Shown in pieces: positions 3,925-14,601 of a DNA stretch of 64,000 nt. How positions within the stretch are numbered: position 1 is the stretch's first letter; every line of letters starts with the position of its first letter. The translations under genes were made by a program, and so were the position numbers. Origin of the DNA: Natrinema halophilum. Its GTDB lineage: Archaea; Halobacteriota; Halobacteria; Halobacteriales; Natrialbaceae. Location: the NCBI RefSeq assembly GCF_013402815.2, contig NZ_CP058601.1, forward strand, positions 1 to 64,000, in the 5' to 3' direction. The notes under the pieces were generated by a model. It was not told where the DNA came from. It saw only the letters and a list, made by a program, of their open reading frames with translations, and searched no databases.

Positions 3925-4845
3925 CTATTCGGCCGGTTGGACGATGCTCTGATCCCGCTCGAGCGACAATCCTCCCTCGAGCGTGCGGACGGGGTAGGGG
4001 ATGTCGATTCCTTCCTCGTCGAAGCGTCGTTTGACCGCAGTGACGTACTCGCCGCGGATGCGGACGAAGTCGGCTCGAGCGGGATTAGCGATCCAGAACC
4101 GCGATTGAAGGCCGACGTCGGACGAACCGAGTTCAGTAAGTCGGACGGAGGGCGCAGGGTCGTCCATAATGTCGGGATGGCGCTCGGCTTCGTCGACGAT
4201 GATCTCGGTCGCCTGATCGATGTCGTCGTCGTAGCCGATCCCGAAGACGAACTTCAGCCGAAGTTCGTCTGCGTCGACGGGGTTCTTGAGAACGCCGTCA
4301 GTAAGTATTGAATTCGGTACGGTGAGTAATTCGTTATCGAACGTTCGCACGCGAGTGACGCGAAGGCTGATATCCTCGACGACGCCGGAATAGGCGCCGT
4401 CGTCCCACTCGATCCAATCACCGATTCGAAACGGCTTGTCGGTGTAGATGAATACGCCGGCCACGAAATTTGAGATCACGTCCTGCATCGCCAGCCCGAC
4501 GGCGAGTGCCCCGGCCGCCGCGATGCCTGCCATCGAAACGAGGAAATTCCCGTAATCTGCGAACCCGAAAGCGATCGCGACGGCGACGAAACCGATACCG
4601 AACTTCGTTACCATCAACAACGGATTCTGTACGTGTTCGTCGAGGCCTCGGTTCTCGAACGCCCGTTTGGTAAGCGGCACGACGACCGTCCGGCCGACGA
4701 ACCAGATAACGGCGAACGCGATGACGAACTTGATCGCACTTTCCGCACCGGCGGCGAAGGGTTCGTTGATGAAGTCCAACTCTTCGAGTTGGCTGCCGAT
4801 GGGGCCAAGCGTTTGCAACGGGGTCAGTAGTACCCCGATACTCAT
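3925..4845 (-). CDS. mscS: MscS-family mechanosensitive channel
   Basis: This 306-aa protein has an N-terminal helix, a membrane segment around residues 35-55, then TM helices with a Gly/Ala-rich pore helix (AAAGALAVGLAMQDVISNFVAG), the hallmark TM3 of small-conductance mechanosensitive channels. The soluble MscS beta domain follows (IGDWIEWDDGAYSGVVEDISLRVTRVRT, VPNSIL). The channel should open on membrane tension and release solutes on hypo-osmotic downshock. Its ATG overlaps the stop of the YhbY-like gene by 4 bases, so the two are translationally coupled at the end of a leftward group that begins with rnp4. Confidence 0.93.
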   Translation of the reverse strand: MSIGVLLTPLQTLGPIGSQLEELDFINEPFAAGAESAIKFVIAFAVIWFVGRTVVVPLTKRAFENRGLDEHVQNPLLMVTKFGIGFVAVAIAFGFADYGNFLVSMAGIAAAGALAVGLAMQDVISNFVAGVFIYTDKPFRIGDWIEWDDGAYSGVVEDISLRVTRVRTFDNELLTVPNSILTDGVLKNPVDADELRLKFVFGIGYDDDIDQATEIIVDEAERHPDIMDDPAPSVRLTELGSSDVGLQSRFWIANPARADFVRIRGEYVTAVKRRFDEEGIDIPYPVRTLEGGLSLERDQSIVQPAE

Positions 4846-5090
4846 CGATAGATCACCGCTGTATGCCCCCGGGTTTCAATCAGTTCAGCGTTGACGCGGT
4901 CGGCGAGGTCGGCCGCCTTTTCGTCGGTCGAACTGCCCGCGCGGGCTGCGCGGAGAAACTTTACTTTCACGAGGTCTCGACTCGAGAGTTGATCGTCGAG
5001 TTCGTCGACGACCGAGTCGATGCCGCTTTTACCGACCCAGACGGTAACGTCGAGATCATGTGCGTCTTGCTTGAGCTCCTGTTTATCCAT
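4842..5090 (-). CDS. yhbY: YhbY/CRM-domain RNA-binding protein
   Basis: This 82-aa protein consists of a single CRM (CRS1-YhbY) domain. It has the VWVGKSG motif corresponding to the family's GxxG-containing RNA-binding loop, then VKVKF and the C-terminal IETRGHTAVIYR. Bacterial YhbY associates with pre-50S ribosomes; the archaeal role is thought to be in RNA or ribosome maturation. The start at 5090 (MDKQELKQ) is preferred over an in-frame ATG ten codons upstream because the domain begins there. It lies between rnp4 and mscS on the same strand and overlaps mscS by 4 bases. The company of an RNase P subunit supports an RNA-processing role. Confidence 0.9.
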   Translation of the reverse strand: MDKQELKQDAHDLDVTVWVGKSGIDSVVDELDDQLSSRDLVKVKFLRAARAGSSTDEKAADLADRVNAELIETRGHTAVIYR

Positions 5091-5220
5091 GGCATAGGAT
5101 TGTGAACCGAGCCGTTTCAATCTTCTCGAACGAGAATCCGACGGCGATTAGCGTCACATTCGGGGCAATCGTCCGAGCGGTCGGCGACCACTCCTCGTGG
5201 CATTCCTGCGATGACGGTCG

Positions 5221-5499
5221 TCAGTCCTCGTACGGATATCTCGCGTGGGCACCACAGTCACAGGTAATGACGACGTGGCCGTCTCGCACTCTGACGCGGG
5301 CGTTCGTTCCCGGCCTGAGATAGGCGTCACAGCGGTCGCACGTAAACCGTCGGAACTCCCGGGGAAGCGAAAGCCGATTTCGCTCCGCGATTCGACGCGC
5401 GAGGCGGACGTAGTATCGAGCTCGGTCGTCCTCGCCGTTCGACGCCGCCGCTCTAGCCAGGTCCTGAAGCCGCTCTATCCGCTCGGCGGCGATCTCCAT
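5221..5499 (-). CDS. rnp4: RNase P protein component 4 (Rpp21/Rpr2 family)
   Basis: This 92-aa protein has two N-terminal helices (IERLQDLARAA, ARYYVRLARRIAERNR) followed by a zinc ribbon with Cys pairs FTCDRC and ITCDCG. This is the structure of archaeal RNase P protein 4/Rpp21, which pairs with Rpp29 on the specificity domain of the catalytic RNA and helps mature the 5' ends of tRNAs. All four cysteines are present and length is normal for the family. It is the first gene of the leftward rnp4-yhbY-mscS group, with 130 bases to the next gene. Confidence 0.93.
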   Translation of the reverse strand: MEIAAERIERLQDLARAAASNGEDDRARYYVRLARRIAERNRLSLPREFRRFTCDRCDAYLRPGTNARVRVRDGHVVITCDCGAHARYPYED

Positions 5500-5711: not shown

Positions 5712-7532
5712 ATGAATTGGAACCCCTCTCCCTCCGAGAACCGCGTTAGCAGGCGCTCGGTGCTCGCTGGCGGCGCTGCAGGCGCCGCGATCACGACGAG
5801 CGGCTGCATCGATAGCGTTCGAAGCGTCGTAAACCACCGCGGAAGTAACAGACTCTCCCTCTCAATCGCCACTGTCCCCGCGGACGCAGACAGACAGAAC
5901 GTACGGATCGCACGTCGACTCGAGGAGAACCTCGAAAAGGTCGGGATCGAAGTCTCACTGGATATGCGGTCGCGATCGGAACTGCTGAAAGCAGTGTTGA
6001 TCGACCACGACTTCGATCTCTACGTCGGTCTCCACCCGGCTGGCTACGATCCTGACTTCCTCTATGAGACTCTCCACTCTACGTACGCCAGCGAAGCAGG
6101 GTGGCAAAATCCGTTTGGGTTCACCGATCAGGCGTTCTTCGACACTCATCTCGAGAAACAGCGTCGAGCCACCGGCGAAAAACGCACACGAGAAATCAAA
6201 AACATCTTGAGAGGACTCACACAGGAGAAAGTGCTCGAACCGATCTGCTTCCCTGACGAGTATCGCGTCGCCAGGTCGGATCGATTTACGGGTTGGAACG
6301 AGGGGAATCTCGCGACACGACACGGTTATCTGGGTCTCGAGCCGGCCGAGGACGTCGATCAACTCCACGCGCTCGTAACCAGCAGCCGCATCACGAAGAA
6401 TCTCAACCCACTCACAGCGACGTTTCGAAAGCGGGGAACGATCATCGGCCTACTGTATGATTCGCTGGGGACTGTCCACGACGACGACGTCAAGCCGTGG
6501 CTAGCGGAATCGTGGGAAATACCCAGTGAGCCGGCGACTGGCGAGGAATCGGCGAACGACCAGCAAGCGACGGATGGCGAAGAGACGCTGCAGACGATGT
6601 CCGTCACGCTCCGAAAGGGTTGTCAGTTCCACGATGGTGAGCTTGTGACTGCCGACGACGTCGCGTTCACCTATCGATTCCTTGATGATACGTCATTGGG
6701 GCGAGCGCCTCTCAAATCACCAGCGCCGCAGTATCAGGGTCAGGTCGACGTTGTCGACGGCGTCACGACGAACGGCGACTACGAGCTTACCATGACGGTA
6801 ACTGGCGGTCGAGAGCCATGCAAACGTGCCCTGACAGTACCGATCTTGCCCGAGCACGTGTGGCGCAAGCGGGTCAACGAACACGCTCTCGACGGCGAGT
6901 TCACTGCGTCGCAGGGCCGGTGGAGCGCCGTCACCACGAACAACGTTCCGCCTGTTGGCAGCGGCCCCTTCCAGTTCGATAGTCGCACCGAGGACGAATC
7001 GCTTACTCTCCGGCGGTTCGACAATCACTTCACCCACCGGGACGACGTCAAATTGCCAGCGCCGACCGTCGCCGAACTGCGGTTCAGTGTCGATCCGGGC
7101 AGCGTCTCGTCGATTGGACGCATTCAAGACGGTGGGGCGGATGTAACGGCTACGATGCTCGGCGCCCATTCGCTGGCCGCAATGAGCGACTCGCCGAATG
7201 TCGAGCAACTGAAGTCCAAGTCACGGATGTTCTATCATGTCGGGTTCAACGTTCGTAATGCGCCGTTCAGCAATTCCTATTTCCGCCGAGCGATCACACA
7301 GTTGCTGGATAAAAAAGCGATCGTCGAGGACGTGTTCTACGAAAACGCGACACCAACTGCGACACCGGTTTCCGGTGACTGGGTCCCCGCGGATCTCGAA
7401 TGGAACGGTGAAGATCCGGTAACGCCGTTCGTCGGTTCGAACGGAACGCTCAACGTCGAAGCAGCGAAAAAGGCGTTCGAGCGGGCAGGGTTCCGTTACG
7501 ATGATAACGGAAGACTGCTTGGAGGATATTAG
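5712..7532 (+). CDS. Tat lipoprotein: circularly permuted peptide-binding (SBP_bac_5) protein, copy 1
   Basis: This 606-aa protein carries a Tat lipoprotein signal (RR at 14-15, lipobox TSGC, C32), so it should be membrane-anchored outside the cell. The fold is that of OppA/DppA-type solute-binding proteins, in an unusual order. Residues about 47-210 correspond to the usual C-terminal part (KVGIEVSL, DHDFDLYVGL, PDFLYETLHS, FTGWNEG). Residues about 220-606 then correspond to the usual N-terminal and middle parts (NLNPLTA, LLYDSLG, WLAESWEI, FHDGELVTADDVAFTY, GSGPF). The protein ends at FRYDDNGRLL, the point where canonical members continue into the block found here at the start. Five bases separate it from the PAP2 gene. 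No permease or ATPase gene lies nearby. The ligand is unknown. Confidence 0.88.
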   Translation: MNWNPSPSENRVSRRSVLAGGAAGAAITTSGCIDSVRSVVNHRGSNRLSLSIATVPADADRQNVRIARRLEENLEKVGIEVSLDMRSRSELLKAVLIDHDFDLYVGLHPAGYDPDFLYETLHSTYASEAGWQNPFGFTDQAFFDTHLEKQRRATGEKRTREIKNILRGLTQEKVLEPICFPDEYRVARSDRFTGWNEGNLATRHGYLGLEPAEDVDQLHALVTSSRITKNLNPLTATFRKRGTIIGLLYDSLGTVHDDDVKPWLAESWEIPSEPATGEESANDQQATDGEETLQTMSVTLRKGCQFHDGELVTADDVAFTYRFLDDTSLGRAPLKSPAPQYQGQVDVVDGVTTNGDYELTMTVTGGREPCKRALTVPILPEHVWRKRVNEHALDGEFTASQGRWSAVTTNNVPPVGSGPFQFDSRTEDESLTLRRFDNHFTHRDDVKLPAPTVAELRFSVDPGSVSSIGRIQDGGADVTATMLGAHSLAAMSDSPNVEQLKSKSRMFYHVGFNVRNAPFSNSYFRRAITQLLDKKAIVEDVFYENATPTATPVSGDWVPADLEWNGEDPVTPFVGSNGTLNVEAAKKAFERAGFRYDDNGRLLGGY

Positions 7533-7537
7533 AAGCG

Positions 7538-8389
7538 ATGCTCGCCGAGGTGCTGACTCAGCTCGTCGCCGTTATCTTGATTTTGCTGCCGATTTCGATA
7601 GCCGTCTTTATCGGCCGCAAACGTCTTGCTCAAACGCGATCTGAATGGCGAAGCAGACTGCAGACCGCTGCACCGGTGATCGTCGTACTGTTGATCGTGT
7701 TGCTGATCAACCGGGTCGCCAGGCAGACGGCGCCGGATCTCTCCCGGGAGATCGGAATTCATCTGACTTCGACCTTCTACAACATCGAAGGAGAATTTAT
7801 TCTGATCTTCCGGACGATCCAGACAGCGGAGACGACGGCGTATTTTTCGTCGATCTACGTCTATGGATATACGTTTCTGCTGATATTCCCCATTATCGCG
7901 TATTTCACTCTCTCGGATACTCGGATCTTTCGTCGGCTGTTGACGGCATACGCCCTTAACTACGCGATCGGATTGGTGCTGTATATCCTCGTAATCGCGT
8001 ACGGTCCTCGGAATCTGATGCCTGCCGAACTGATGGAACGAATGTTATACGATACAAACCCACAATATCAGTATCTCACGCGGGAAGTCAACACGAACAC
8101 CAACGTTTTTCCGTCGTTGCACACGTCGCTCTCTGCAACCGTCGCCACGTTCGCGTGGATAACTCGCTCGAAATTCCCGAAGTGGTTTCCCGTCGCAGTA
8201 ATCCTGGCAGCAAGCGTCGCAATATCGACGATGTACCTCGGGATTCACTGGGGGATCGACGTCACCGCTGGCTTGGTGCTTGCTGCCCTTTGTGTGGATC
8301 TTTCCGACCGGCTCGTCGACCGCTGGTCCGTCGCAGAACTGTTCGACCAGTACGGTGATCGAATTCCGTGGAAGCAAGAACACGAGTAA
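7538..8389 (+). CDS. PAP2-superfamily membrane phosphatase
   Basis: This 283-aa polytopic protein has hydrophobic segments near residues 3-26, 45-62, 105-128, 135-165 and 200-260. The PAP2 active-site motifs are VFPSLHTS (P192-H195, motif 2) and STMYLGIHWGID (H237, D241, motif 3). The classic KxxxxxxRP motif 1 is not obvious, as in the PAP2_3/Aur1-like subgroup. Such enzymes dephosphorylate lipid or isoprenoid phosphates or transfer phospho-headgroups, usually with an outward-facing active site. It starts 5 bases after copy 1 of the permuted binding proteins and is followed by copy 2, so it is likely co-transcribed with the first. Substrate unknown. Confidence 0.85.
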   Translation: MLAEVLTQLVAVILILLPISIAVFIGRKRLAQTRSEWRSRLQTAAPVIVVLLIVLLINRVARQTAPDLSREIGIHLTSTFYNIEGEFILIFRTIQTAETTAYFSSIYVYGYTFLLIFPIIAYFTLSDTRIFRRLLTAYALNYAIGLVLYILVIAYGPRNLMPAELMERMLYDTNPQYQYLTREVNTNTNVFPSLHTSLSATVATFAWITRSKFPKWFPVAVILAASVAISTMYLGIHWGIDVTAGLVLAALCVDLSDRLVDRWSVAELFDQYGDRIPWKQEHE

Positions 8390-8716
8390 CCAGGTCGCTT
8401 GCGGTTTTGCCCGGTCACTACCTTCGGAACGGATGGTTGACTGCCGTCATATGCCTCGCCATCCGCGGTTCTGAACGGCGTCGCAGTCTCGGCATCGAAC
8501 TGGTTCCCTGTGTCCGTTCGAACGCCACAACTCGCCTCGACGGAGCTGACACACCGGCTCGAATACGTCAAAGCGAAACTGAGCTCGCGGTTCAAGTACC
8601 CGGGTGGATACCGGACGACCGCACCGTTTGCGAGGATCGATTGTGCCGTTACCCCGCGGACTCCCGATAACATAATACTGTTATATCGCGGCAGATTACT
8701 GTGGCAGACGTACAAG
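8390..8716 (+). other. Intergenic region upstream of the second permuted binding protein
   Basis: There are 327 bases between the PAP2 stop and the next ATG. A frame open from a GTG at 8510 runs into the downstream gene, but its first 69 residues do not resemble anything and precede an otherwise standard Tat signal, so I treat them as noncoding. The promoter element at 8674-8689 is the only recognisable signal. Confidence 0.5.
8674..8689 (+). promoter_or_regulatory. Promoter element shared with the paralog at 5712
   Basis: aatactgttatatcgc closely matches the element at 5669-5684. Its TGTTATA core ends 32 bases before the ATG at 8717, the same distance as in the first copy. Confidence 0.5.
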
Positions 8717-10495
8717 ATGAACGGACGACGGGCTGCCCCCAATCGGAGCAACCGCAACACTGGCGGCAGTAGCGTCAGCCGTCGTGCCATGCTGGCGGCG
8801 ACGACCGGAGTGACAGTCTCGACCAGCGGGTGTGTTAATCGCCTCCGGGATCTCGTGACCCGGAACAACATCAAACAACTCTCGTTGACGATTACCACGC
8901 TCCCCGCAGACAGCGACAGGGAGAGCATTCGAATTGCAAACGAACTCGAACGTATCTTCAAGACGGTCGGGATAGACGTTTCCTTCGACGTTCGATCTGG
9001 TATCGATTTCCTCCAGACCGTTCTTTACGACCACGACTTCGACGTCTGCATCGGTCGTCACCCGGGCGGGACCGACCCGGATTTCCTCTATCAGGCGTTG
9101 CACTCGCTGTACGCCGACGAATCCGGCTGGCAAAACCCCTTCGGGTTCACCAATTTAACCGTTGATGCCTTTCTCGAGAAACAACGCACCGCCGAAGGGG
9201 CGGATCGTCGCGAAGCGGTCACGGACGCACTCGAAACGATAGCGACCGTCCAGCCGTTCGTTCCGATCTGTATCCCAGAGGAGCACCGGATGGTGAGAAG
9301 CGACCGGTTCGACGGTTGGGATGAGGGCCACCTCGCGACGCGACGCGGATATCTCGGCCTCGAACCGGCCGAAAGCGTCGAGACGCTACGTGCGATTAAT
9401 ACGGATGCCAGACCGACGGACAACTTAAACCCCCTCGCTATCAGCCACCGGGGCCGTGGAACGTTCACTGAATTACTATACGACTCGCTGGCGACCGACG
9501 ACCCTGACGGAGACGTTCAGCCGTGGCTCGCTGAGTCGTGGGAGTGGGATGGACGGACGGCAGACGTCCACCTCCGCGACTGGTGTGAGTTCCACGACGG
9601 GGAGACGATATCCGCAACCGACGTCGAGTTCACCTACCAGTTCCTGAAGGACATGTCCCTCGGGAATCACGAAGTGGAGACGCCGGCCCCTCGGTATCGA
9701 GGACAGGTTGAAGCCATCGAAACGGTCGAAGTGAGAGGTCCCACTCGCCTGGAGATAACGGTCGACACCAGTCCGGAAGTCGGCGAACGGGCCTTTCTCG
9801 TCCCCATTCTTCCCGCTCACGTCTGGCAAGAGCGGGCTGCAGACCCGAACGGGCCGGTCGGCGTAAGCCTCGCCCAGGGAACCACGAAAGCGGTCGTTAC
9901 GAACAACGTTCCGCCGATTGGAAGTGGTCCCTATCAGTTTGCGAGTCGTACAGAAGGTGATCAGCTCACGTTCGAACGATACGATTCACACTTCACCCGT
10001 CGGGCCGGCGTCGATCTCCCGGAACCGACTGTCGACGAGCTTACCGTCCAGATCACCCCGAGCAGCAAGACTGCTATCCGCGCCGTCGAAAACGACGTCG
10101 CCGACGTAACGAGTACGTCACTCGAGTCCAACGTCATCGATACTATCCACGATTCCAGCGACAGCCAGTTACTCGAGTCTCCGTCGTGGACGTTTTACTT
10201 CCTGGGATTCAACGCGCGCAAGGCCCCGTTTAGCAATCCACGATTTCGACGAGTCCTTGCACGCTTGATCGACAAGGAGTGGCTGGTTGAGAAGGTGTTC
10301 TACGGAAATGCACGACCCGTCGCGACGCCGGTCACCGAGCAGTGGGTCCCCAAAAGCCTCGAGTGGCAGGGGGACGATCCCGAAACACCGTTTCTTGGGA
10401 CAGATGGCGAAGTCAACGTAAGCGCGGCGCGGGCCGCATTCGAGGCAGCCGGATTCCGCTACGACGAACAGGAACGGCTCCGTGTGAGACAGTGA
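8717..10495 (+). CDS. Tat lipoprotein: circularly permuted peptide-binding (SBP_bac_5) protein, copy 2
   Basis: This 592-aa paralog of the 5712 gene has the same order of parts. A Tat lipoprotein signal (RR at 22-23, TSGC with C39) is followed by the normally C-terminal block (LSLTITTLPAD, DHDFDVCIGRH, TDPDFLYQALHS, FDGWDEG). The normally N-terminal part comes next (NLNPLAI, LLYDSLA, WLAESWEW, FHDGETISATDVEFTY, PPIGSGPY), and the protein ends at FRYDEQERLRVRQ. The start at ATG 8717 is chosen because it gives a normal Tat n-region and a TATA-like box at the same spacing as in copy 1. The duplication spans the whole protein, but the two are clearly diverged, so it is not recent. Expected location is the outer face of the membrane. 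Confidence 0.88.
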   Translation: MNGRRAAPNRSNRNTGGSSVSRRAMLAATTGVTVSTSGCVNRLRDLVTRNNIKQLSLTITTLPADSDRESIRIANELERIFKTVGIDVSFDVRSGIDFLQTVLYDHDFDVCIGRHPGGTDPDFLYQALHSLYADESGWQNPFGFTNLTVDAFLEKQRTAEGADRREAVTDALETIATVQPFVPICIPEEHRMVRSDRFDGWDEGHLATRRGYLGLEPAESVETLRAINTDARPTDNLNPLAISHRGRGTFTELLYDSLATDDPDGDVQPWLAESWEWDGRTADVHLRDWCEFHDGETISATDVEFTYQFLKDMSLGNHEVETPAPRYRGQVEAIETVEVRGPTRLEITVDTSPEVGERAFLVPILPAHVWQERAADPNGPVGVSLAQGTTKAVVTNNVPPIGSGPYQFASRTEGDQLTFERYDSHFTRRAGVDLPEPTVDELTVQITPSSKTAIRAVENDVADVTSTSLESNVIDTIHDSSDSQLLESPSWTFYFLGFNARKAPFSNPRFRRVLARLIDKEWLVEKVFYGNARPVATPVTEQWVPKSLEWQGDDPETPFLGTDGEVNVSAARAAFEAAGFRYDEQERLRVRQ

Positions 10496-13314: not shown

Positions 13315-14601
13315 ATGGAGGTCCGTCGGACCGTCCCCGTCAAACTCGACGTGGCCGACAGCGACGCTGACTTCCTCCACGAAACCATTTCTGAGTTCCT
13401 GTGGGCCGCTAACTACGTCGTAGACCACGCGTGGCAAGGCGAATACAAGACCACGAGTAAAGCCGAACTCCAACGCGAAACCTACGACGACGTGCGGGCA
13501 GAGACGCAACTGCAAGCGAATCTCGTCCAGAACGCTCGCAACAAGGCCGCCGACGCCGTACAGAGCGCCGTCGCTCGCTGGAAGCAAGGTGACTGCGCGG
13601 GGAAACCGCATTTCACAGCCCCGACGCTCGTCTACGACAAGCGGTGTGCGACGTTCACCGACGATCACGCCACGCTCTCAACTGTTGAGGGACGTATCAC
13701 CGCCGAATACGTCCTTCCCGACGGGAGTCGAGAGACGCCTCACTCGGAATACCTGTACAATGACGACTACGAAGTGACTGGTGCGGAACTGCACTACCGC
13801 GACGGGGAGTTCTACCTACACATCCGAACAAAGGCGGATGTGGAGTCTGAGATTGCCGACGACGGCAACGCCGGGCACAGCACAGTCCTCGGCGTTGACC
13901 TCGGCATCGAAAACATCGCCGTCACGTCCACGGGCGCGTTCTGGAACGGGTCGGAGTTGAACCATTGGCATCGTGAGTTCGAGAAGCGACGTGGGTCGCT
14001 TCAACAGCATGGAACGCGGGCCGCCCACGAAACCATCCAGTCGGTCGGACGCACTGAGACGGGGCGCTACAACCACTTCTTACACACCGTCTCGAAAGAA
14101 CTCGTCGCGGAAGCCATCGAAAACGGCTGTGACGTAATTGCGTTCGAGAACCTGACGGGGATTCGTCAGCGGATGCCTCGCGCCAAGAAGTTCCACGCAT
14201 GGGCGTTCCGACGGCTATTCGAGTACGTCGGGTATAAGGCTGAGGGAGTCGGTATCTCGGTCGAACAGGTGAGTCCCGCGTACACCAGCCAGCGATGTTC
14301 TAAGTGCGGGTTCACCCACGAGGACAACCGTCCAACCTCGGACGGACAGGACGTATTCGAGTGCCTGAAGTGCAACTACTCACCCCACGCGGACTACAAC
14401 GCAGCGAAGAACATCGGTCTGAAGCATCTCCGCTCGGCGCAAAAGTCGTCGGGCGGAGGCGCGCCCGTAAACGTGCGCTTGAATCGCGGGACGTTGAACG
14501 TGAATGGCGAGTACGAGCCTGCCGCCGACGGCGGCCAGAACGGGAGTCCACGCGAAAGCCTCACCCTCAACGAAGCGAACGGCGTCGCCGTGAGCGAGTA
14601 G
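13315..14601 (+). CDS. tnpB: TnpB, RNA-guided endonuclease of an IS1341-type element
   Basis: This 428-aa protein has the N-terminal OrfB helix-turn-helix region ([13 protein letters not shown]), a beta-barrel segment and a split RuvC-like nuclease. The catalytic residues are D195 (GVDLGIEN), E278 (AFENLTGIR) and D360 (HADYNAAKN), with a zinc ribbon at C328/C331 and C350/C353 between the last two. All key residues are present and the frame is intact, so the protein could be active. TnpB uses an RNA from the element's right end to cleave DNA next to a short motif. A C-terminal tail of about 60 residues after the RuvC part overlaps the expected guide-RNA scaffold. No tnpA is nearby. Confidence 0.95.

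Follow-up and report, generated by a model that had tools for sequence, protein, structure and literature searches.

Circularly permuted SBP_bac_5 solute-binding proteins of probably several origins, with a putatively PAP2-partnered branch in haloarchaea

Introduction

The solute-binding proteins (SBPs) of cluster C, such as AppA of Bacillus subtilis and DppA, OppA and NikA of Escherichia coli, are built in the order B-A, in which the N-terminal two thirds (block B) precede the C-terminal third (block A). By established usage this canonical order is taken as the ancestral one. The present analysis concerns the first 64,000 nucleotides of contig NZ_CP058601.1 of Natrinema halophilum (the window), where two paralogous SBPs, P0001 and P0003, lie on either side of the gene for a PAP2-superfamily membrane protein, P0002. 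P0001 and P0003 have lipoprotein motifs and, as predicted, the same fold as the cluster C proteins, and most of their permuted relatives are encoded in importer operons; they differ in having the order A-B, with new termini near AppA residue ~355, and in lacking a linked importer.

Members of the PAP2 superfamily (PF14378/PF01569) carry the motif SRxxxxxHxxxD, with Arg usual at that position. P0002 shares the PSxH and H..D elements with them, but has an invariant Thr in place of the motif Arg and a permuted SBP as its operon partner.

Natural circular permutation has been described for TpMglB-2 (Tp0684; 'Type Ic / Cluster Bc'), in treponemes and Gram-positives; the name Cluster Bc is proposed there and tethering is suggested as a possible reason for the permutation (PMC4990184). 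TpMglB-2 is likewise a naturally permuted SBP lipoprotein, but it belongs to Type I/Cluster B (MglB) and is cut elsewhere, whereas the proteins considered here belong to family 5, occur in several phyla and probably had several origins. The literature searched held no description of a permuted SBP_bac_5 protein, a weak negative with most subscription papers outside the search, and nothing on haloarchaeal PAP2 proteins together with such binding proteins. An earlier note on this DNA had known of no description of such a permutation, which stands for SBP_bac_5 in the literature searched and fails for SBPs at large because of TpMglB-2 (PMC4990184). Three further papers (PMC2588589, PMC7683729 and PMC2912341) were rejected as precedents; in them the relevant words were confined to tables, reference lists or an example that has no bearing on the subject.

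The joint explanation that we favour, with a probability of roughly 0.7, is that P0001 and P0003 are circularly permuted SBP_bac_5 proteins, that such permutation had several origins, and that the two proteins belong to a haloarchaeal branch partnered with PAP2 proteins.

Results

Swapped block order in P0001 and P0003

The earlier note proposed that both SBPs are circularly permuted, and Pfam profiles and two AlphaFold models support this. Both open reading frames (ORFs) exist and end at 7532 and 10495 as it had claimed. Against the Pfam SBP_bac_5 profile (PF00496; length 368, curated cut-off 32.4 bits), P0001 and P0003 in native order scored 159.7 and 163.0 bits, far above the cut-off, and each matched in two stretches, the best of which placed residues 260-600 of P0001 on profile positions 2-284 and residues 267-584 of P0003 on positions 2-282. 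At E ≤ 1 no SBP family of Pfam other than SBP_bac_5 was matched, and neither protein belongs to cluster B or the TpMglB-2 type. The N-terminal pieces alone corresponded to the end of the profile, positions 289-362 for P0001 (E 0.001) and 288-359 for P0003 (E 0.02). Neither protein in native order gave the collinear full-length Pfam match of a canonical SBP_bac_5 topology; only after rotation in silico, a comparison suggested by the earlier note, did each match in a single near-full-length stretch and with a higher score (2-361 at 169.6 bits for P0001, 2-358 at 173.0 bits for P0003). L001, one of the canonical SBPs of this genome and scored in native order only, matched in one stretch over positions 1-366.

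The swap was also seen in a phmmer search of the Protein Data Bank (PDB) with unrotated P0001, in which residues 297-549 matched AppA 83-308 and residues 43-127 matched AppA 355-437; AgaA gave the same result. In the bacterial relative L144 both pieces were significant alone against AppA (110.0 and 35.4 bits), again in swapped order. PDB sequences numbering 108 matched the profile at E ≤ 1e-10. In all of the best 60 the best stretch started at profile position ≥ 206, and there is therefore no solved permuted SBP_bac_5 protein among those 60. OppA, DppA and NikA of E. coli all scored as canonical when the block-order classifier was checked.

Both copies share one cut point, as had been claimed, directly after the helix AKKAFERAGF in P0001 and ARAAFEAAGF in P0003. 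Each of the two chains runs from a twin-arginine translocation (Tat) signal with a lipobox through the part after AppA ~355 to the usual C-terminus, continues at the usual N-terminus and ends with the helix that normally precedes its own start.

Predicted structures

The AlphaFold2 model of P0001, made from a 46-row alignment, had a pLDDT (predicted local distance difference test) of 87.6 and a pTM (predicted template modelling score) of 0.86. When the model was compared by VIA, the aligned part ran from residue 190-217 to residue 596-606 in all 50 rows listed and corresponded to the canonical N-terminal two thirds. Residues 210-606 were placed on AppA 18-357 (Z 22.0, root-mean-square deviation (rmsd) 2.7, 331 aligned); the model was also superposed on NikZ 3-328 (Z 22.0, rmsd 2.9, 323 aligned) and DppA 1-347 (Z 20.3). 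Block A of P0001 (residues 43-211), folded alone from 37 rows (pLDDT 84.2, pTM 0.69), was placed on AppA 355-517 (Z 12.0, rmsd 4.1, 160 aligned), and in each of the 50 rows listed it corresponded to the C-terminal part of an SBP. Together the halves span AppA 18-517, with the junction at 355-357, and P0001 is predicted to have the cluster C SBP fold, its halves compared apart.

Block A alone matches Pfam weakly, as its E values show, and could on that ground be an unrelated N-terminal domain fused to a C-terminally truncated SBP, with no permutation. Its model resembles the C-terminal part of SBPs in every row listed, and the block A of L144 is significant alone against AppA; such a fusion is therefore extremely improbable. 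A separate, non-SBP domain formed by the N-terminal ~165 residues, which the earlier note had considered, was ruled out on the same model, in which this region is the C-terminal third of an SBP.

Two points tell against a permuted SBP fold. The second phmmer piece of P0001 was weak alone (5.2 bits with AppA, 7.9 bits with AgaA), and the halves of P0001 were superposed separately, each in sequential order; sequential superposition on 1xoc gave TM-scores of 0.44/0.52. The positions equivalent to DppA R383 and D436, compared with a peptide-type ligand in mind, lack general conservation in permuted and canonical proteins alike.

Distribution of the permuted order

Full-length collinear orthologues of P0001, counted from the match listing, were present in 29 of 29 genomes of the genus, its own included, which bears out the stability that the earlier note had supposed. 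Some match to P0001 was found in 55 of the 61 genomes searched, partial matches to canonical SBPs included. The note had also suggested a search for the same order in other haloarchaea, and it was found across their families and outside them. When 294 genomes of the phylum were searched with a profile, the matches listed included full-length ones in f21, a family outside the order, and in families f1, f4, f5, f6, f7, f12 and f17 within it. Usually no more than four candidates per genome were scored, and the number of matches listed was limited; absences from this search therefore mean little.

Plasmid records of Alphaproteobacteria gave single-piece matches from P0001 residue 43-59 to residue 594-602, in Neorhizobium, Ketogulonicigenium, Nitratireductor, Maritalea and Roseomonas, and all five loci were classified as permuted. 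A tblastn search of plasmids with an f21-type protein gave mostly two-piece matches, none of which was counted as permuted; L258, the one examined, was canonical. In a genome scan with a fragment across the permuted junction, 180 of the 317 candidate stretches were relatives. The top 80 of these 180 all matched 176 or 177 of the 177 residues, and one permuted ORF was present in each of the 80 bacterial scan loci. These 80 were mostly from Alphaproteobacteria, with others from Trueperaceae, Chloroflexota/Thermomicrobia, ANGP1, Armatimonadetes and one Bacillota metagenome-assembled genome (MAG); several junction-scan relatives are MAGs, whose taxon labels were taken as given.

Within the family the permuted order is inherited stably, and SBP_bac_5 proteins that have it are widespread. 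An assembly or annotation artefact was ruled out, since the order recurs in all 29 genus genomes and in other phyla. The annotated records of permuted SBPs examined were labelled only 'ABC transporter substrate-binding protein'. Because the best Pfam stretch ends at about three quarters of the profile, ligand predictions from collinear alignments would go wrong.

Another permuted SBP and the number of origins

The N. halophilum genome has eight SBP_bac_5 places, three permuted (P0001, P0003 and P0004) and five canonical; the block A match was weak for two of the five, L006 and L008. Behind P0004 (locus L075) lie the genes for two permeases and two ATPases. Full-length P0004 was present in at least 24 of the 29 genus genomes, and one further genome had it in two pieces; among the matches listed for the remaining 36 of the 61 genomes there was none that was full length and above 30% identity. 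The two pieces are the ORFs at G025 contig C5:154975-156589 (residues 1-204 and 219-547), broken near the junction of blocks A and B, which may represent either a frameshift or a split binding protein.

P0004 is cut before the helix 'AEELIQKGF', whereas in P0001, P0003 and the bacterial and f21-type members examined the cut follows the corresponding helix. Outside the genus, P0004 is most closely related to L127, which is canonical and has the same operon layout; P0004 234-544 corresponds to L127 70-383 (43% identity) and P0004 46-227 to L127 391-578 (26%). P0004 and L127 are a ready pair for comparison, and both block orders in like operons offer rare material on how folds tolerate new termini.

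In a careful tree of 66 proteins, with the permuted ones rotated, 37 of the 41 permuted rows lay on one side of a branch with 99/97 support. P0004-type proteins were sister to canonical L127 at 100/100, the f21-type rows L123 and L124 grouped with canonical L258 at 96/92, and four label changes were forced by starred branches. A single clade of every permuted row was rejected by the approximately unbiased (AU) test (p = 1.1e-5, rotated), as were clades of main plus P0004 (p = 3.8e-4) and main plus f21-type (p = 0.0036), two groups defined post hoc from the tree. A tree of block B only, for which no rotation is needed, gave four changes and rejected one clade at p = 1.7e-14. The trees favour placing P0001 and P0003 in the large main branch, shared with bacterial importer-linked members.

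The count of origins is weakened by its dependence on sampling. A quicker 85-row tree had six changes, three of them forced by starred branches, and set the permuted L135 and L141 on the canonical side, unlike the 66-row tree; it also joined the long branches L136 (permuted) and L006 (canonical). Of the 19 rows dropped between the two trees, five were dropped as long branches (L003, L006, L253, L136 and L065) and 14 to shorten the run (L072, L109, L126, L233, L240, L245, L218, L223, L202, L060, L046, L054, L067 and L256).

A single permutation, with the scattered canonical relatives L127 and L258 explained as reversals or tree misplacement, would agree with the 37 permuted rows beyond one branch, with the f21-type having the main cut site and with L258 being a fairly long branch nested in that type, and label changes do not separate gain from loss. 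It is hard to reconcile with the rejection of the all-permuted clade in both alignments, with the two rejected post hoc groups and with the different cut of P0004 beside a canonical sister at 43% identity, and we regard it as improbable. The favoured reading of the sequences is that at least three separate permutations took place beside the same helix, with the cut before it in one and after it in the others.

Duplication or fusion followed by loss of the outer parts is the general route to circular permutation, and the ancestor of these proteins may have arisen by tandem duplication or fusion in this way. No tandem-duplicated intermediate was seen in the loci examined; the sole ORF with multiple matches, L130_8583, had one interrupted block A.

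Gene context and a proposed PAP2 partner

Gene context was recorded for 198 permuted ORFs that differ from one another in their last 300 residues, a non-random sample picked by permuted queries and containing many close orthologues. A BPD-type permease was present in the locus of 119, a PAP2 gene lay downstream on the same strand in 64, none had both and 15 had neither; the partner types among permuted SBPs are exclusive. Four of the 15 partnerless ORFs are second copies in an SBP-PAP2-SBP cluster (L005, which is P0003, L081, L082 and L132), several are on short loci or near contig ends, L047 and L051 are of the PAP2 type but had no PAP2 match, and L071, L136 and L140 had no partner in 13-kb loci. 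Of the 80 bacterial scan loci, 77 had a permease match and none a PAP2 match. Hydantoinase/oxoprolinase and M28 peptidase genes were near three of the four annotated bacterial operons examined, the exception being Maritalea, and a permuted-SBP operon of Halalkalicoccus contained creatininase genes.

SBP-PAP2 loci occur in many families of the order, for instance in Haloferax gibbonsii. Natronorubrum bangense has two pairs in tandem (SBP-PAP2-SBP-PAP2), so that its counterpart of P0003 has a following PAP2 gene, which P0003 (8390-10495 of the window) lacks; the genus loci L081 and L082 likewise have one PAP2 gene for two SBPs. P0002, which starts 5 bp past the P0001 stop, matched PF14378 (60.6 bits) and PF01569 (46.0 bits) above both cut-offs. 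Its residues G156, P157, R158, P192, S193, L194, H195, S197, H237 and D241 were identical in 76 of 76 aligned ORFs, near-copies and repeats included; the catalytic His and Asp expected of a PAP2 phosphatase (H195, H237 and D241) are among them.

None of the 33 PF00528 places of the genome, which would mark a linked BPD_transp_1 permease, fell within the window; in contig coordinates the nearest were at 209 kb on one side and, on the other, ~48 kb short of the contig's far end. Apart from the permutation, P0001 and P0003 could be normal importer SBPs served by one shared permease encoded elsewhere, with the PAP2 neighbour incidental. Orphan SBPs served by distant permeases are known, of the six further SBP_bac_5 genes in this genome five have a permease pair next to them, and the same permuted clade has members in full importer operons. 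Such an arrangement would not account for the PAP2 gene behind 64 of the 198 ORFs, never with a permease in the locus, or for the recurrence of SBP-PAP2 across the order and twice in tandem in N. bangense, and it seems unlikely, though less so than a single permutation.

A functional PAP2 partnership has its own difficulties. PAP2-type members L047 and L051 had no PAP2 match in 13-kb loci, and none was found behind P0003 in the first 20 kb of the window. The Arg of the motif is replaced by Thr231 in P0002 and in all 76 aligned ORFs, and PAP2 activity of P0002 is therefore uncertain; the SBP-PAP2 link is known here from gene order alone.

The partnership with PAP2 nevertheless remains our preferred reading, and the strict split between permease and PAP2 points to a binding protein recruited for a non-import role in haloarchaea. 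The permuted SBPs would still be ligand-binding clamshells whose termini had moved to the other lobe, and one haloarchaeal branch may have given up the ABC importer. A short tether could keep the binder at the membrane beside the PAP2 partner encoded right behind it; the SBP might present or sense a ligand for a PAP2 phosphatase/phosphotransferase, whose activity would be directed at the captured ligand or controlled by it. A bolder reading, which we judge about as likely as not, is that the surroundings of the helix before AppA ~355 form a recurrent natural permutation site, used at least three times independently. The resulting permuted binding proteins would be an unrecognised class, found in several bacterial phyla as well as in archaea, and in one haloarchaeal branch they would have left ABC import to bind ligands, as lipoproteins, for a PAP2 lipid phosphatase.

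Membrane anchors

The PAP2-type members, as set by profile score, had a twin-arginine (RR) motif and a lipobox in 70 of 70 cases, with the lipobox near the start of the fold and a lipid tether of 9-12 residues. Cys32 of P0001, read from the lipobox motif, is the putative lipidated residue. The lipobox pattern, tallied by regular expression with start codons as given, was present in 4 of 84 bacterial permuted members. The proposal of the earlier note that permutation moved the lipid anchor holds for P0001 and P0003; as a general driver of permutation, lipid anchoring was ruled out by the bacterial count, and tethering, the reason suggested for TpMglB-2, poorly fits as a general reason on the same count.

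In family f21, the permuted SBP at L123 6730-8472 has a C-terminal PGF-CTERM anchor motif (PF18204), and its membrane anchor would therefore sit at the other new terminus. A 1299-aa frame at L056 5214-9113 ends in a permuted PAP2-type SBP and is perhaps merely an overlong ORF; its first ~650 residues had no convincing Pfam match.

Features of the locus and upstream element

The coordinates of the features are given in Table 1. The P0003 start codon is most likely at 8717 rather than 8510, because the Tat motif and the TATA-like element ahead of the gene suit 8717.

Table 1. Features of the P0001-P0003 locus (window coordinates) and position of P0004 (contig C1)
Feature	Position	Strand	Basis or remark
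GCAATATTGTTATAT, TATA-containing element upstream of P0001	5667..5681	+	kept in most relatives examined
P0001, circularly permuted SBP_bac_5 Tat lipoprotein, 606 aa	5712..7532	+	ORF ends as in the earlier note, Pfam, rotation, models
P0001 Tat signal, RR motif and lipobox TSGC	5712..5807	+	sequence, motif tally
P0001 block A, residues 43-211, canonical SBP C-terminal third (AppA 355-517)	5838..6344	+	
P0001 block B, residues 213-606, canonical SBP N-terminal two thirds (AppA 18-357)	6348..7529	+	
P0002, PAP2-superfamily membrane protein (PF14378/PF01569), motif PSLH...H..D retained	7538..8389	+	
ATAATACTGTTATAT, similar element upstream of P0003	8672..8686	+	by eye
P0003, paralogous permuted SBP_bac_5 Tat lipoprotein, 592 aa	8717..10495	+	
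P0003 block A, canonical C-terminal third	8864..9367	+	
P0003 block B, canonical N-terminal two thirds	9368..10492	+	
P0004, permuted SBP_bac_5	C1:3919553-3921196		block-order classification

Both paralogues are preceded by an element that contains TATA and resembles GCAATAYTGTTATAY, often accompanied by the palindrome CAATATTG; its core TGTTATA was present in 24 of the 29 upstream stretches examined. The element looks like a shared operator. Among the matches listed for the genome itself there was one further place, with one mismatch (the P0003 copy has two and is not among them), and a wider regulon was dropped from consideration on that basis.

Upstream of P0001, genes for a YhbY-family RNA-binding protein and RNase P component 4 (Rpr2) lie divergently on the minus strand (4842-5499), an arrangement that is the same in N. 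bangense. A TnpB-like IS605 OrfB gene (PF07282, PF01385) is located at 13315-14601 of the window.

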